Shown here one piece after another: positions 5,585-59,451 of a stretch of DNA of 64,000 bases. A program made the position numbers and the translations under genes. Within the stretch, counting starts at the first letter, position 1. Each line of letters begins with the position of its first letter. Below the pieces are notes generated by a model that ran no database searches, was not told where the DNA came from, and saw only the letters and a program-made list of their open reading frames with translations. Origin of the DNA: Cryomorphaceae bacterium BACL29 MAG-121220-bin8 (GTDB lineage Bacteria > Bacteroidota > Bacteroidia > Flavobacteriales > Flavobacteriaceae); the NCBI GenBank assembly GCA_905182765.1, contig CAJJCV010000009.1, positions 1 through 64,000 on the forward strand. The letters run 5' to 3'.

Positions 5585-5608
5585 GATCTTGAATGGCAAG
5601 ATCTTTGA
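5585..5608 (+). promoter_or_regulatory. Sigma-54-like TGGCAA-N5-TTGA (5594-5608), overlapping inverted repeat GATCTTG-N5-CAAGATC (5585-5603)
   Basis: gatcttgaatggcaagatctttga, 12 nt upstream of the TonB receptor ATG at 5621. Confidence 0.4.
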
Positions 5609-5620
5609 TTTAAATAGATT

Positions 5621-8056
5621 ATGAAAAAAATATTATTATTTTTTGTCCTTACATCAACTAGTTTATTGTACTCACAAAATAGCGAAGTTATAGTTACGGG
5701 AAAAGTTACTGATTCAGAAACAAATATTCCATTAGAATATGCAACCATAAGTGTATTTAATGTGAATTCAGAGGATGCAATAAATGGGGTCATTACCGAC
5801 AGTAATGGTGAATTCAGTATTGAACTTAGCAAGGGTAATTATGATTTTAAAGTAGAATTTATATCATTTAAAATAAAGTATTACAGAAATATAACTGTTA
5901 ACAATCCGTTGAATTTGGGAACAATCGAGCTTTCAATTGATGAAAATATATTAGACGAAATTGAAGTTATTGGCGAAAAAACTGAAATTGAAATAAAGTT
6001 AGATAAGACTGTCTATAATATTGGAAAAGATTTGACTTTAAAAGGAAGTAGCGTTAGTGATGTTTTAGATAACCTACCATCAATTGAAGTTGATATTGAG
6101 GGTAATGTATCCTTAAGAGGTAATGAAAGTGTAAGGATTTTAATAAATGGTAAACCATCAGGACTTGTTGGAATAAGCAGTAATGAAGCGTTAAAACAAT
6201 TCCCATCTGAAAGTGTTGAAAAAGTTGAAGTAATCACCTCACCTTCAGCCAGATATAATGCTGAAGGAACTGCAGGGATTATTAATATTATATTAAGAAG
6301 AAGTAAATTAACTGGATTCAACGGATCTCTATCACTTAATAGTGGATATCCAGAACGATATGGGGTTTCAGCTAATTTAAATTATAGAACAAAAAAACTT
6401 AATTTTTTTAACAATATAGGCTATAATACAAGAACTAGTGAGGGAAGTTTTATAAATGAAACAGAATACTATACAGATCAAGCAATTAATAACTTTTTAA
6501 ATGAAAATGGTGTTAGAGGTTCAGAGAGAAACTCAAATTATTTAAACACTGGAATTGAATATTTTATTTCTGACAAAACTAGTGTAGTTGGCTCATACGT
6601 ATTTAGAAAAAGTGATGGTTTTACAAATAACACTAATAATGTTAATCAAAATTTTAATTCAATATCCAAATTTTCTGAAAGGTTAGAGAAAGAATCAGAA
6701 ATTGATGATACGAATGAATTCTCAATTAATCTAACACATGATTTTAACAAAGAAGGACATGTGTTAACCATGGACTATCAAAAAGAAAAATCTTCAGAAA
6801 ATGAAAATGGATTTATTTCAAATTCTCAATTAAAGCCAATATTAACTAAATACTTAAGTGAAAAGGTTAATACAGATGAAATTCAAGAAAGTGAACTGTT
6901 TAAAATAGATTATGTATTACCAATTAAAAAAGACGGGCAATTTGAACTTGGGTTTAGAAGAAGTAATCAGCATCAAGATATTGATTACTTGGCAAAAAAT
7001 GAAGACTTAAATGGTGATTTCATTAATGATCTAAATCTCAGTAATACTCTTCTTTATAACGAAAAAGTTAATGCTTTTTACACGCAGTATGGAAATAAAA
7101 AAAATAAATTTTCTTATCTGTTGGGTTTAAGATATGAAGAATCTAAAACCACTGTAAAACAGTTAGCAAACAATACTAATAATGTTAAAAATTATAATGA
7201 TTTCTTTCCTACCTTAAATTTATCTTATCAAATTAAGGAAGACGAAACTATAACTTTTGGATACAATAGAAGAATTAGAAGAGCTAGATCATATTTTATT
7301 AATCCATTCCCATCCAAATCGAGTGCAACCAATATTTTTCAAGGTAATCCAAACATAGATCCTACCTATTCTAATGGAATTGATTTAGGATATTTAAAGA
7401 GATATGAAAAACTAACTTTGAATGGATCTATTTATTACAGAAAAGAAACCGGAGTATTTACTTTTATTAGTGAAAATACTGGGGATTTTGTTCTTGTTAA
7501 TGAAATATTGGTTCCTGTCCTAAGAAGAACTCCAATTAACTTAGCAAGCAATAAACAAATTGGACTAGAGCTAAATGCAAATTTCAATCAATCTAAAAAC
7601 TGGAGATTAAATGGGAGTTTAAACTTTTATGAATCAGAGACTTTAGGTGAATACATGGGGATTGTATATGACTCTAAAAATTTAACATGGTCAGGGAGAC
7701 TAAGCAATAATTTAAAATTATTTTCCAGTGTAGACTGGCAAACTAGCTTTAGGTACAGAGCTCCTCAAAAGACCGCAGTTTCTGAAAGAAAAGCTTCTAT
7801 ATACAGTAATACTGCATTTAGTAAAGATCTATTAAAAGATAAAGTAACATTAACATTTAAGGTTAATGATATATTTGAAACTGGAAAATGGAGAATAGAG
7901 TCTTTTAATGAAAACTACAGAAGTTATAGTGAAAGTAATTGGAGGGGAGGAAGAACCTTAGAGTTAAACTTAATTTATCGTTTTAATCAAAAGAAAAAGG
8001 AAACTAGAAATTCAGGTGACTATAACGATTATAGTGAAGGCGGCTTTGGAACTTAA
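5621..8056 (+). CDS. TonB-dependent receptor, outer-membrane beta-barrel family with N-terminal carboxypeptidase-like regulatory domain
   Basis: 811 aa; signal peptide, VTGKVTDSETNIPLEYATISV domain, plug region VSDVLDNLPSIEVDIEGNVSLRGNESVRILINGKPSGL, SAEGTAGIINI-type segment (YNAEGTAGIINI), barrel with GYNRRIRRA. Confidence 0.92.
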   Translation: MKKILLFFVLTSTSLLYSQNSEVIVTGKVTDSETNIPLEYATISVFNVNSEDAINGVITDSNGEFSIELSKGNYDFKVEFISFKIKYYRNITVNNPLNLGTIELSIDENILDEIEVIGEKTEIEIKLDKTVYNIGKDLTLKGSSVSDVLDNLPSIEVDIEGNVSLRGNESVRILINGKPSGLVGISSNEALKQFPSESVEKVEVITSPSARYNAEGTAGIINIILRRSKLTGFNGSLSLNSGYPERYGVSANLNYRTKKLNFFNNIGYNTRTSEGSFINETEYYTDQAINNFLNENGVRGSERNSNYLNTGIEYFISDKTSVVGSYVFRKSDGFTNNTNNVNQNFNSISKFSERLEKESEIDDTNEFSINLTHDFNKEGHVLTMDYQKEKSSENENGFISNSQLKPILTKYLSEKVNTDEIQESELFKIDYVLPIKKDGQFELGFRRSNQHQDIDYLAKNEDLNGDFINDLNLSNTLLYNEKVNAFYTQYGNKKNKFSYLLGLRYEESKTTVKQLANNTNNVKNYNDFFPTLNLSYQIKEDETITFGYNRRIRRARSYFINPFPSKSSATNIFQGNPNIDPTYSNGIDLGYLKRYEKLTLNGSIYYRKETGVFTFISENTGDFVLVNEILVPVLRRTPINLASNKQIGLELNANFNQSKNWRLNGSLNFYESETLGEYMGIVYDSKNLTWSGRLSNNLKLFSSVDWQTSFRYRAPQKTAVSERKASIYSNTAFSKDLLKDKVTLTFKVNDIFETGKWRIESFNENYRSYSESNWRGGRTLELNLIYRFNQKKKETRNSGDYNDYSEGGFGT

Positions 8057-13809: not shown

Positions 13810-13828
13810 TTTCAATCATTATGCCATA
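13810..13828 (-). promoter_or_regulatory. Sigma-54-like element TATGGCAT-AATGA-TTGAAA upstream of dnaK
   Basis: Read on the minus strand; TGGCAT-N5-TTGA with -24/-12 spacing, 26 nt upstream of the dnaK ATG; same bipartite sequence upstream of lon. Confidence 0.6.
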
Positions 13829-13838
13829 TTAATATACA

Positions 13839-13851
13839 TGACACTGTGTCA
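13839..13851. promoter_or_regulatory. 13-bp palindrome TGACACTGTGTCA in the dnaK-panB divergent intergenic region
   Basis: Perfect dyad around one central base; next to the sigma-54-like motif (dnaK side) and just upstream of the panB -33 element. Confidence 0.5.
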
Positions 13852-24083: not shown

Positions 24084-26538
24084 TTAAATTTTTATAATTC
24101 TTAACATTTTGATTTGTAAGAGCAATATCTAAAACTTGTTTCATGTTTGAAACATAATGAAAAGTTAAGCCTTTTAAATAACTAGAATCAATTTCATCAA
24201 TATTTTTTTTATTCTCCTTACACAAAATAATTTCTTTAATTTTAGCTCTTTTAGCTGCCAAAATCTTCTCTTTAATCCCTCCTACTGGCAAAACTTTTCC
24301 TCTTAAAGTAATTTCTCCCGTCATAGCTAACTTTGATTTAACTCTTTTTTGAGTTAATAAAGACACTAAAGAAGTTAACATTGTTATACCAGCGCTTGGC
24401 CCATCTTTTGGAGTTGCTCCTTCTGGTACATGAATATGAATATTGTGTTTAGTTAGTGCATTCAATTCGATAGATAAATCATTAGCATTAGATTTAATAT
24501 ACTCTAGAGCTATTGTAGCAGATTCTTTCATTACCTTACCTAAATTACCAGTAATAGATAAGTTTCCTTTCCCTCTTGAAAGTGCTGATTCAATAAATAA
24601 AATATCACCACCAAATTGTGTCCAGGCTAAGCCAGTTACTACTCCTGCAACTTCATTATTTTCATATTGATCTTTAGAAATTGATACTCCTAAAATTTTA
24701 TCAATATCAGTTAAAGTTATTTCTGACGAGTAATCTTCTTCTAAAGCTATACACTTAGCAACATTTCTTATAATTTTTGCTATTTGTTTTTCCAACCCTC
24801 TTACGCCTGATTCTCTCGTGTAGCCTTCAATAATTTTTTCAGATGATAGTTTATTGATTTTTACAATATTTTTTGATAAACCATGTTCTTTAATTTGTTT
24901 TGGAATTAAATGTTTTTTAGCAATCTGATATTTTTCTTCAATAGTATAACCTGAAACATGTACTATTTCCATTCTATCTCGAAGTGCGGGTTGAACATTA
25001 GCTATATTATTAGATGTAGCAAGAAACATAACTTTTGACAAATCAAAACCTGACTCAATAAAATTATCATAAAAAGAGGTGTTTTGCTCAGGATCTAAAA
25101 CTTCTAACATTGCAGAAGATGGATCACCTTGATTTCCAACAGAAAGCTTATCGATTTCATCTAAAACAAAAACCGGGTTAGAAGTTTTAGCTTTTTTTAA
25201 ACTTTGGATAATTCTTCCTGGCATTGCCCCTATGTAAGTCTTTCTATGCCCTCTTATTTCGGACTCGTCTCTAAGACCGCCTAAAGATATTCTTACATAC
25301 TCTCTCCCCAATGCTTCAGCAATTGATTTACCTAAAGATGTTTTACCAACTCCTGGTGGGCCATTAAAACAAAGAATCGGAGATTTCATGTCATTTCTTA
25401 ACTTTAAAACTGCTATATGTTCAATAATTCTTTTTTTAACATCTTTCAACCCATAATGATCTCTGTCTAAAATTTTAGTTGCTCTTTTTAGATCAAAATT
25501 ATCTTTTGAAAATTCGTTCCAAGGAAGCTCTAAATAAGTGTCTAAATAATTTCTTTGAATAGAATACTCAGCAACTTGAGGATTCATTCGTTGAAGTTTA
25601 GATAATTCTTTTTTAAAGTGATCATTAATATCTTTTGACCACTTTTTTTTAGTAGACTTAATTCTCATTTCATTAACTTCTTCGTCATAAGAAACTCCAC
25701 CTAATTCTTCTTGGATTGTCTTTAATTGTTGATGTAAAAAATATTCTCTTTGTTGTTGATCTAAATCTGATCTTACTTTAGATTGAATATCGTTTTTTAA
25801 TGAAAGTCTTTGTAATTCAACATTCATTTGTTTTAAACACATTAATGCTCTTTTTTTTAAATCACTTGTGTTTAATATTTTATACTTTTCCTCAACAGAT
25901 AAATTCATATTAGAACACACAAAATTTACCAAGAAGGAATCACTTTGAATATTTTTAATTGCAAAAGAAGCTTCACTTGGAATATTTGGGTTTTCTTCAA
26001 TGATTTTTAGAGCAATATCTGTAATAGAATCAATAGTTGCTTTAAATTCTTTGTTGTTTTTTTCTGGTTTTAATTCAACTATTTCTTTTACACTAGCAGT
26101 AATATATGGTTCTTCAGAAATGATTTGTTCAATTGAAAATCTTTTCTTTCCTTGAATTATAACAGTAACATTACCATCTGGCATTTTTAAAACTCTTAAT
26201 ATTTTAGCTACAGTTCCAGTTGAATGAATGTCATTTAAAGTGGGTGACTGTACTTTTGAATCAATTTGAGAAACAACACCAATCAATTTATCATTAGCAT
26301 TAGAATCCTTTATCAATTTAATCGATTTATCTCTGGATGCAGTAATTGGGATCACTACACCAGGAAACAAAACTGTATTTTTTAAAGGTAAAATCGGTAG
26401 TTTTTCAGGAAGTGATTCCTTTGAAATAGCTTCTTCATCATCTGATGTCATTAATGGAATTAAATCTGAATCTTCATCAAGATTTTGCAATGACATCATG
26501 TCAAGATTTAGTATTTTAGTTTTGGACATAATTAACAA
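24073..26538 (-). CDS. lon: ATP-dependent endopeptidase Lon
   Basis: GPPGVGKTSLGKSIAEALGREYVRISLGGLRDESEIRGHRKTYIGAMPGRIIQ; DGPSAGITM Ser active site; start may be 26529 (MSKTKIL). Confidence 0.97.
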   Translation of the reverse strand: MLIMSKTKILNLDMMSLQNLDEDSDLIPLMTSDDEEAISKESLPEKLPILPLKNTVLFPGVVIPITASRDKSIKLIKDSNANDKLIGVVSQIDSKVQSPTLNDIHSTGTVAKILRVLKMPDGNVTVIIQGKKRFSIEQIISEEPYITASVKEIVELKPEKNNKEFKATIDSITDIALKIIEENPNIPSEASFAIKNIQSDSFLVNFVCSNMNLSVEEKYKILNTSDLKKRALMCLKQMNVELQRLSLKNDIQSKVRSDLDQQQREYFLHQQLKTIQEELGGVSYDEEVNEMRIKSTKKKWSKDINDHFKKELSKLQRMNPQVAEYSIQRNYLDTYLELPWNEFSKDNFDLKRATKILDRDHYGLKDVKKRIIEHIAVLKLRNDMKSPILCFNGPPGVGKTSLGKSIAEALGREYVRISLGGLRDESEIRGHRKTYIGAMPGRIIQSLKKAKTSNPVFVLDEIDKLSVGNQGDPSSAMLEVLDPEQNTSFYDNFIESGFDLSKVMFLATSNNIANVQPALRDRMEIVHVSGYTIEEKYQIAKKHLIPKQIKEHGLSKNIVKINKLSSEKIIEGYTRESGVRGLEKQIAKIIRNVAKCIALEEDYSSEITLTDIDKILGVSISKDQYENNEVAGVVTGLAWTQFGGDILFIESALSRGKGNLSITGNLGKVMKESATIALEYIKSNANDLSIELNALTKHNIHIHVPEGATPKDGPSAGITMLTSLVSLLTQKRVKSKLAMTGEITLRGKVLPVGGIKEKILAAKRAKIKEIILCKENKKNIDEIDSSYLKGLTFHYVSNMKQVLDIALTNQNVKNYKNLNVK

Positions 26539-26541
26539 TTA

Positions 26542-26554
26542 GGTCAATGTGTCA
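26542..26554 (-). promoter_or_regulatory. TGACACATTGACC half-palindrome in the lon leader, resembling the dnaK palindrome
   Basis: Minus-strand TGACACATTGACC vs dnaK TGACACAGTGTCA; 9 of the first 10 bases shared. Confidence 0.3.
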
Positions 26555-26630: not shown

Positions 26631-26649
26631 TTTCAAGTTTCATGCCATA
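26631..26649 (-). promoter_or_regulatory. Sigma-54-like element TATGGCAT-GAAAC-TTGAAA upstream of lon
   Basis: Minus-strand reading; identical to the dnaK element outside the 5-nt spacer; about 95 nt upstream of the lon start. Confidence 0.6.
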
Positions 26650-57033: not shown

Positions 57034-57048
57034 TGGCATATTTCTTGA
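57034..57048 (+). promoter_or_regulatory. Sigma-54-like element TGGCAT-ATTTC-TTGA upstream of TonB-dependent receptor
   Basis: Correct orientation, 40 nt upstream of ATG 57088; same spacing as the dnaK and lon motifs. Confidence 0.5.
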
Positions 57049-57087: not shown

Positions 57088-59451
57088 ATGCTTAAAAAGT
57101 TTTTATTTATACTTCTCTATTTATCGATAAACTTAATTTATTCACAAGATAAATTTACATTAAGCGGATATGTCTTAGATGAAAATAGTAATGAATCTAT
57201 AATTGGTGCTAACATAATTATTCCAAGCATTAACTCCGGAACAATTACAAATACTTATGGATTTTTCTCAATAACACTTCCTGAAAAAAATTATGAAATT
57301 CAAATAAGTTCTATTGGATATAAAAATATCTCAACTGATATAGATTTAATAAAAAACGTCAATACTACATTTTTCTTATCTCAAAATATCGAAAATTTAG
57401 AAGAAGTTGTTGTCATAAAAGATGTTGAAGAGATTGATATAACAAAACCTGTAATGAGTTTGAATATCTTATCAAATCAAACAATTAAACAAACTCCTGT
57501 ACTATTTGGTGAATCTGATGTTTTAAAAACTATTCAATTACTTCCAGGTGTGTCAAATGCAGGAGAAGGAACAGGTGGATTCAATGTAAGAGGTGGTGCT
57601 GCAGATCAAAATCTAATTTTGTTTGACGAAGCCATAATATACAGTTCATCTCACTTGTTTGGTTTATTTTCAATTTTTAATTCTGATGCAATAAAAGAAG
57701 TTAAACTTTTTAAAGGTGGCATACCTTCATCTTACGGAGGAAGGCTTTCTTCCGTTTTAGATGTATATCAAAAAGACGGGAATAGTAAAAAACATAAGTT
57801 AAGCGGAGGAATTGGAATAATATCAAGTAGATTACTGGGCGAAGGTCCAATAAAAAAGAATAAAGGTTCGTATCTGATTGCAACAAGAGGATCTTACGCC
57901 CACCTTTTCTTGAAATTTACTGATATTGAAAACGTAGCTTATTTTTATGATATTAATACCAAATCAAACTATAAAATAGATAAAAACAACACCTTGTATT
58001 TCTCTGGATATTTTGGTAGAGACAAATTTAAACTTAGCGACACGTTTTCTAATACCTATGGAAACTCAACATTCAACCTAAGATGGAATCACTTAATCAA
58101 TGAAAAAACCTTTTCTAATACTTCTTTGATTTTTAGCGATTACTACTATGGGTTGACACTAAATTTCGTAGGTTTTGATTGGAATTCAGGTATTAAAAAC
58201 TTAAACATCAAGTTTGATTTAAAAAATTATTATTCTAATAAAATACAATTCAACTATGGATTAAACTCTATTTACTACGAATTTAATCCTGGTGAAATTA
58301 GTCCAATTAACCAGTCAGGTATTAATTTTACAATACTTGAAAGAAAGTTTGCTTTAGAAAATGCGGCTTATTTTGATGTAGTTCATAAAGCCTCGCCAAA
58401 AATATCTCTTAGATACGGTTTTAGATTAAATCAATTTTTAAGATTCAAACAAGATGGCCTGAACAGATATATAAACGACAACCCTGTAACTTTTGATCAA
58501 GATCTTGGTATTTATAAAGAGGCTGAAATAATTGGAGAATACTTAAATCCCGATAATTCAAAAACCATTAAATCCTTTTATAATTTTGAGCCAAGATTTA
58601 ATTTTTCTTATAATTTTAAAAATCAAGCTATTAAAGTAAGCTACAACAGATTAAATCAATATATTCATCTAATATCTAACACCAATGCTCCTGCTCCACT
58701 AGATATTTGGGCTCCGAGTGGACCTTACTTAAAACCACAGCAATTAGATCAATTGGCTTTTGGTTATCACTCTAAATTAAAAAATGGGAATAAATTAGAA
58801 ACTGAAGTTTTTTATAAAAAAATTAAAAACAGACTAGATTATATCCCAGGTGCTGATTTAGTTGCTAACGCAGCTGTAGAAAGAATATTATTAGCGGGAA
58901 AAGCAAGAGCATATGGAATGGAATTTTTATTTAAAAAAAATAAAGGCAGACATAATTACTGGATTGCTTATACCCTTTCAAAATCAGAACAAAAAACTAC
59001 AGGACGTAACATTAGTGAAACTGGAATCAATATGGGAAATTGGTACAATACACCATATGACAAAACTCATGACTTTAGTTTTGTATCCAATTATAAATTG
59101 AATAAAAAATTAACTTTTAATACTAATTTTATATTTCAAACAGGACAACCAACAAATTATCCTGTAGGGCAATACACATATATGAATTTAACGATACCAA
59201 ATTATGGGGAACGTAATTCAAATAGACTTCCCAACTACCATAGACTTGATATCTCTCTAACTCTAATTCCTAATAAAAATAAAAAAAGAGATTTCAAAAG
59301 TGAATGGGTTTTTGGATTTTATAATATTTACAACCGAGACAATGCAAATTCTATAACTTTTCAACAAAATCAAAAAACTTTGAAAAATGAAGCAATTCAA
59401 TTATCTATTTTTGGAATTGTTCCAAGTATATCTTATAATTTTAAATTTTAA
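57088..59451 (+). CDS. TonB-dependent receptor with carboxypeptidase-like regulatory domain
   Basis: FTLSGYVLDENSNESIIGANIIIPSINSGTITNTYGFFSITLP; LKTIQLLPGVSNAGEGTGGFNVRGGAADQNLILFDEAIIY; HLFGLFSIFNSDAIKEVKLFKGGIPSSYGGRLSSVLDV. Confidence 0.93.
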   Translation: MLKKFLFILLYLSINLIYSQDKFTLSGYVLDENSNESIIGANIIIPSINSGTITNTYGFFSITLPEKNYEIQISSIGYKNISTDIDLIKNVNTTFFLSQNIENLEEVVVIKDVEEIDITKPVMSLNILSNQTIKQTPVLFGESDVLKTIQLLPGVSNAGEGTGGFNVRGGAADQNLILFDEAIIYSSSHLFGLFSIFNSDAIKEVKLFKGGIPSSYGGRLSSVLDVYQKDGNSKKHKLSGGIGIISSRLLGEGPIKKNKGSYLIATRGSYAHLFLKFTDIENVAYFYDINTKSNYKIDKNNTLYFSGYFGRDKFKLSDTFSNTYGNSTFNLRWNHLINEKTFSNTSLIFSDYYYGLTLNFVGFDWNSGIKNLNIKFDLKNYYSNKIQFNYGLNSIYYEFNPGEISPINQSGINFTILERKFALENAAYFDVVHKASPKISLRYGFRLNQFLRFKQDGLNRYINDNPVTFDQDLGIYKEAEIIGEYLNPDNSKTIKSFYNFEPRFNFSYNFKNQAIKVSYNRLNQYIHLISNTNAPAPLDIWAPSGPYLKPQQLDQLAFGYHSKLKNGNKLETEVFYKKIKNRLDYIPGADLVANAAVERILLAGKARAYGMEFLFKKNKGRHNYWIAYTLSKSEQKTTGRNISETGINMGNWYNTPYDKTHDFSFVSNYKLNKKLTFNTNFIFQTGQPTNYPVGQYTYMNLTIPNYGERNSNRLPNYHRLDISLTLIPNKNKKRDFKSEWVFGFYNIYNRDNANSITFQQNQKTLKNEAIQLSIFGIVPSISYNFKF

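Follow-up and report, generated by a model that had tools for sequence, protein, structure and literature searches.

The -24/-12 sites that precede dnaK and lon in this Bacteroidota genome are almost certainly sigma-54 promoters, and we assign a probability of roughly three in four to the reading that promoters of this type drive a proteostasis regulon comprising dnaK, lon, grpE-dnaJ, groESL, htpG, and hsp20 under the control of an enhancer-binding protein (EBP) and a palindromic sequence. The description of this regulon as a heat-shock type is inferred from the identities of its genes. Based on sequence comparisons, an EBP carrying an AAA+ domain and a Fis-type HTH, together with the palindrome TGNCA-N3-TGNCA, probably constitutes the activator and its operator. 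Bacteroidota are abundant in the sea and in the gut, and they control chaperone genes without HrcA or RpoH, for which the open literature we searched offers no named regulator. Sigma-54 promoters are expected to remain silent until an ATP-driven activator acts, which means that a single protein could control the entire response. With an operator and a candidate gene put forward herein, the activator proposal becomes testable.

The window, meaning the whole 64,000-nucleotide stretch of DNA that was analyzed, carries the element TATGGCAT-N5-TTGAAA upstream of both dnaK (13828..13810, minus strand) and lon (26649..26631, minus strand), with the coordinates and orientation given in the original prediction. 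As also described there, all 14 nonspacer bases are identical between the two sites. The claim that fewer than one such site should occur by chance in the window holds as well, given that TGGCAW-N5-TTGA is present four times compared to a mean of 0.40 (sd 0.64, maximum 3) in dinucleotide shuffles of the window, where 0 of 100 shuffles reach four matches. Moreover, all four sites are intergenic and each is oriented toward a gene, whereas only about 1.6% of the strand-specific positions in the window are as favorable. Regarding the two sites assigned to TonB-type receptors, the one at 57034 is conserved within the genus, but the one at 5594 is weak and is not conserved (Table 1).

Table 1. Promoter elements, candidate operators, and coding regions located in the window.
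Feature	Position	Strand	Remark
dnaK sigma-54 core promoter TGGCAT-AATGA-TTGA	13812..13826	-	predicted +1 ~13800
lon sigma-54 core promoter TGGCAT-GAAAC-TTGA	26633..26647	-	predicted +1 ~26621
dnaK CDS, 637 aa	11870..13783	-	
lon CDS, 818 aa	24073..26529	-	
Palindrome TGACACAGTGTCA, candidate activator operator	13839..13851	-	12 bp upstream of dnaK -24 box
TGACACATTGACC, operator-like, in lon 5' leader, downstream of promoter	26542..26554	-	
TGACATGATGTCA within the start of the lon CDS; may be a second copy or due to chance	26491..26503	-	
TGGCATATTTCTTGA, sigma-54-type, without palindrome, 5' of TonB-receptor-like gene (57088-59451)	57034..57048	+	kept in 6/8 genus members
TGGCAAGATCTTTGA, doubtful, 5' of TonB-receptor-like gene (5621-8056)	5594..5608	+	among relatives examined, only in the two nearest

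Conservation of the sites was assessed by using a simple -24/-12 score. Among relatives, which are not independent of each other, so that binomial p-values assuming independence are indicative only, a site is present upstream of dnaK in 27/27 genomes (12 families) and upstream of lon in 27/28, leaving out one truncated lon match. The same limit applies to the additional Bacteroidia genomes, where the counts are 47/48 for dnaK (drawn evenly across the class, and including one site in G199 that is far from the gene and possibly due to chance) and 28/29 for lon, and to the groES regions, all 34 of which carry a site. The score yields a background of 8-10% in shuffled sequence, and the region upstream of miaB, which served as a negative control, has a site in 6/43 cases. 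The dnaK and lon sites persist across genomes whose flanking sequences differ. Upstream of dnaK, the GG-N10-G spacing is maintained in more than 40 families, and the spacer is N5, with N4 or N6 variants seen zero times or once. A site upstream of dnaK is also retained in G198 (L353), a strongly reduced genome of 0.49 Mb that probably belongs to an endosymbiont.

A genome-wide scan, which the original prediction had proposed as a check, found the bare motif to be only mildly enriched. There are 15 matches to TGGCAW-N5-TTGA in 1.40 Mb versus ~8.7 expected, which is ~1.7 times an expectation extrapolated from the window shuffles. The excess consists of six promoter-positioned sites, located upstream of dnaK, lon, the SUF operon, a DsbD-like gene, and two TonB-type receptors, while the remaining nine matches reside inside genes or are misplaced, as chance predicts. 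A control with the reversed pattern, which gave one match, was set aside because reversal creates CpG and the enrichment is thereby overstated. Given that the bare motif is only mildly enriched, it is weak evidence alone, and the case rests on position and conservation.

The protein components needed for this type of promoter are also encoded. RpoN is found in 29/30 genomes, with the ARRTVAKYRE-type RpoN box intact in those read, and sigma-54 activators (PF00158) are present. In the genome from which the window derives, -24/-12 sites also precede groES, htpG, grpE-dnaJ, and hsp20. Thus, among the partner genes that had been predicted, groES and htpG have sites, whereas none could be assigned to clpB or htrA, as neither ClpB nor HtrA was located in this assembly (80% complete). 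The gene for ClpC (843 aa), which is present, has no -24/-12 site.

At dnaK and lon, the -12 box departs from the canonical TTGC and reads TTGA. This form occurs at dnaK in 20/27 genomes in the order and in 32/47 in the class, and at lon in 21/28, while TTGC is found at grpE in 10 of the 12 sites read. A lineage-wide shift in the -12 preference was considered and rejected, because G049 carries TTGC at grpE and TTGA at dnaK. The deviation to TTGA is thus specific to certain promoters and old, and is not the consequence of an altered sigma factor.

The sequence TGNCA-N3-TGNCA occurs at ten places in the same genome. Five of these copies are upstream of dnaK, grpE-dnaJ, hsp20 (two copies), and groES-groEL, one is upstream of htpG, and one is upstream of miaB. 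The remaining three are intragenic, including one in lon. The gap between the palindrome and the TGG of the -24 box is 12 bp at dnaK, htpG, and hsp20 and 13 bp at grpE, and a related element or half-site is positioned 12 bp before the -24 box of groES. Likewise, the distance from the end of a half-site to the -24 box is exactly 12 bp in 17/27 dnaK regions from relatives and in 21/34 groES regions from named genomes, and the histogram of gap lengths peaks at 12 bp for both genes. The element is therefore promoter-proximal at dnaK, grpE, htpG, hsp20, and groES, but is downstream of the promoter at lon, where TGACA-N3-TGAC(C/T) is present in 23/27 genomes in the order and in 11/28 in the class (0-2 for other spacings).

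The palindrome was also examined in 80 named Bacteroidota loci that carry the EBP gene. The exact palindrome is located upstream of miaB in 35/40 cases and upstream of groES in 24/34, although the latter count is less telling since many matches fall within a terminator hairpin that belongs to the upstream neighbor and it thus partly counts hairpins. Elsewhere, there are only 21 copies in 1.4 Mb, and other spacings and permuted words gave no comparable pattern at miaB. A gene-blind scan of 149 genomes from the phylum searched for the palindrome followed by 10-14 bp and TGGCA. Among the 30 loci read from it, 11 were at grpE and 2 at dnaK, and the remaining 17 were mostly chance-like. Outside the order, the palindrome is less regular. 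For example, dnaK half-sites in other families of the class cluster at ~20-23 and 30-31 bp, distances compatible with helical phasing. In Bacteroidales, no palindrome is visible upstream of the EBP gene in most cases. Separately, in two class relatives (L306 and L307), a gene whose product starts with MALEIT and appears by eye to be thioredoxin-like is preceded by a palindrome and a -24/-12 site.

Two EBPs recur in the genomes examined: a receiver-type protein without an HTH and an AAA+-HTH type. The latter is composed of an AAA+ domain (PF00158, E ~1e-66), a linker of ~100 residues, and a C-terminal Fis-type HTH (PF02954, Fis-type DNA-binding, E ~1e-11), with no receiver or sensor domain. Its GAFTGA loop reads HEKGAFTGA or HEKGSFTGA in 9/9 aligned proteins, and the recognition helix, ISERTLYRKIK, hardly varies within the phylum. 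The gene resides in the arrangement miaB-EBP-lptE-TPR-secG, followed by groES-groEL. In three relatives (G019, G026, and G029, all 99% complete) this protein is the only strong PF00158 match and the dnaK site is kept. As the sole clear EBP in these near-complete genomes, it is the likely activator.

In the genome that contains the window, the AAA+-HTH EBP gene is absent from the assembly. However, contig C29 ends inside miaB and contig C26 ends 83 bp before lptE, and the gene should fall in the gap between these two contigs. Upstream of miaB, the palindrome falls across the -33 position of a sigma-A promoter, the -7 box of which reads TATCTTTG. This placement over the -33 box suggests that the operon is autorepressed.

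We propose that the AAA+-HTH EBP would bind the TGNCA-N3-TGNCA palindrome and open the E-sigma-54 complex at the promoters of the chaperone genes and lon, while repressing its own operon, miaB-EBP-lptE-TPR-secG. Heat or misfolded protein might raise its activity, perhaps via release from a chaperone, although this step is a guess. One may reasonably guess that a partner protein, which could be a chaperone, regulates the EBP, since the latter has no receiver domain. We consider the chances to be about even for a more specific combination of features, wherein the Bacteroidia chaperone and Lon regulon is governed by one sensorless, self-repressing EBP that acts not from a distant enhancer but from a fixed proximal palindrome, placed 12 bp upstream of the -24 box or farther upstream by complete turns of the helix, and wherein promoter strength is tuned gene by gene through the -12 base, with TTGA kept at dnaK and lon and TTGC at grpE. 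EBPs normally act from further away than ~-39 to -51. Should the fixed proximal spacing be confirmed, few such proteins would share this geometry.

Several other explanations for these observations were considered. In other bacteria, the usual heat-shock regulators are an HrcA/CIRCE-type repressor or an RpoH-like sigma factor, and either one might be expected to control the chaperone genes here as well. This is extremely improbable, because HrcA is found in 0/30 genomes by a search that recovers it from 7 control genomes, and because RpoH, which the original prediction had described as generally lacking in Bacteroidota, gives no match above the curated cut-off in any of the 30 genomes; the sub-threshold hits to its profile all fit the ~290-aa primary sigma factor of Bacteroidota. 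It is hardly more probable that the motif is coincidental and that dnaK and lon are transcribed from sigma-A promoters of the ordinary Bacteroidota kind (TTTG / TANNTTTG). The sequence TACAATTG does follow the dnaK site after a few bases, and the mild genome-wide enrichment noted above would agree with coincidence. However, more than 40 families retain the -24/-12 site almost without exception despite differing surroundings, and sigma-54 start sites have been mapped for the orthologous genes in Flavobacterium psychrophilum (PMC9723704). The conservation of the -24/-12 sites, the presence of RpoN and activators, the sites at partner genes, and the HrcA and RpoH results all support the sigma-54 interpretation that was originally offered.

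A different alternative accepts the sigma-54 promoters but assigns the remaining roles to other proteins, such that a separate regulator binds the palindrome or the activator is the receiver-type EBP, acting alone or in mixed rings. In several families, the gene for this protein immediately follows grpE-dnaJ or the genes behind it, which is a suggestive linkage, and its place behind dnaJ made it the initial suspect. Since it carries no HTH, another protein would have to bind the palindrome if it were acting. We find this alternative unlikely, because the receiver-type EBP is absent from the three single-EBP genomes (G019, G026, and G029) that retain the dnaK sigma-54 site, and because it is the operon encoding the HTH-bearing EBP that carries the palindrome. 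Furthermore, the dnaK palindrome is located at ~-39 to -51, which we take to be outside the usual footprint of E-sigma-54, and this argues against simple occlusion by a repressor. The representative of the receiver-type EBP in the genome that contains the window (L149:7689-8852, contig C51, downstream of grpE-dnaJ) has a receiver and an AAA+ domain without an HTH, and carries GAFTSA in place of GAFTGA.

The preferred candidate, the AAA+-HTH EBP, has a likely counterpart in architecture among well-known regulators. PspF is composed of an AAA+ domain and a Fis-type HTH with no N-terminal sensor domain, serves a sigma-54 stress response, and autorepresses a sigma-70 type promoter. The candidate EBP shares this domain composition, including the lack of a sensor domain, and autorepression is proposed for it here. 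PspF acts from far-upstream sites and is held by PspA. In contrast, the candidate EBP has a site at ~-39 to -51 and a linker of ~100 aa before the HTH, and its targets are cytosolic chaperones and Lon. A dedicated activator system for a heat-shock lon gene is also found in HsfA-HsfB and lonD of Myxococcus xanthus (cited in PMC9548883), where it is a two-component phosphorelay. The likeness is limited to the dedicated activation of lon, since the candidate EBP has no receiver domain.

The idea of sigma-54 control over chaperone genes is already known from Flavobacterium (PMC9723704) and from a phylum-wide prediction (PMC12316311). In F. psychrophilum, Guerin and colleagues found mapped transcription starts bearing sigma-54 motifs upstream of dnaK, lon, groES-groEL, grpE-dnaJ, htpG, clpB, and skp, labeled the regulon SM4, and noted three PF00158 proteins (PMC9723704). 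The text consulted assigns no activator or operator to the chaperone cluster, whereas we propose a palindrome and one EBP, and we extend the conservation across the class. A 2025 survey of computed sigma-54 regulons predicts clusters for DnaK, DnaJ, GrpE, GroEL/ES, and IbpA to be enriched in Bacteroidota, with the highest values in Flavobacteriia, and the predicted regulons include proteases, among them COG0466 (Lon) (PMC12316311). Those predictions provide neither an activator nor an operator for the chaperone clusters, both of which are proposed here. The claim of sigma-54 dependence in the survey concerns B. thetaiotaomicron and F. psychrophilum; reference 80 therein, cited as experimental evidence that grpE and groES depend on sigma-54, resolves to a Blattabacterium genome paper, which leaves the claim without a traceable source. 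Our search of the open literature found no publication naming an activator or operator. To the extent that this literature shows, the likely operator and activator are new.

The TonB-receptor site at 57034-57048 lacks the palindrome and perhaps responds to a different activator. Matches to TGGCAW-N5-TTGA precede the SUF iron-sulphur operon (G000:C47:1112-1126, L014) and the DsbD-like gene (G000:C3:20463-20477, L001). Identical 15-mers are present in relatives for both the SUF operon site (G002, G008, and G013) and the DsbD-like site (G001 and G013), and this recurrence suggests additional sigma-54 targets that lack a palindrome.
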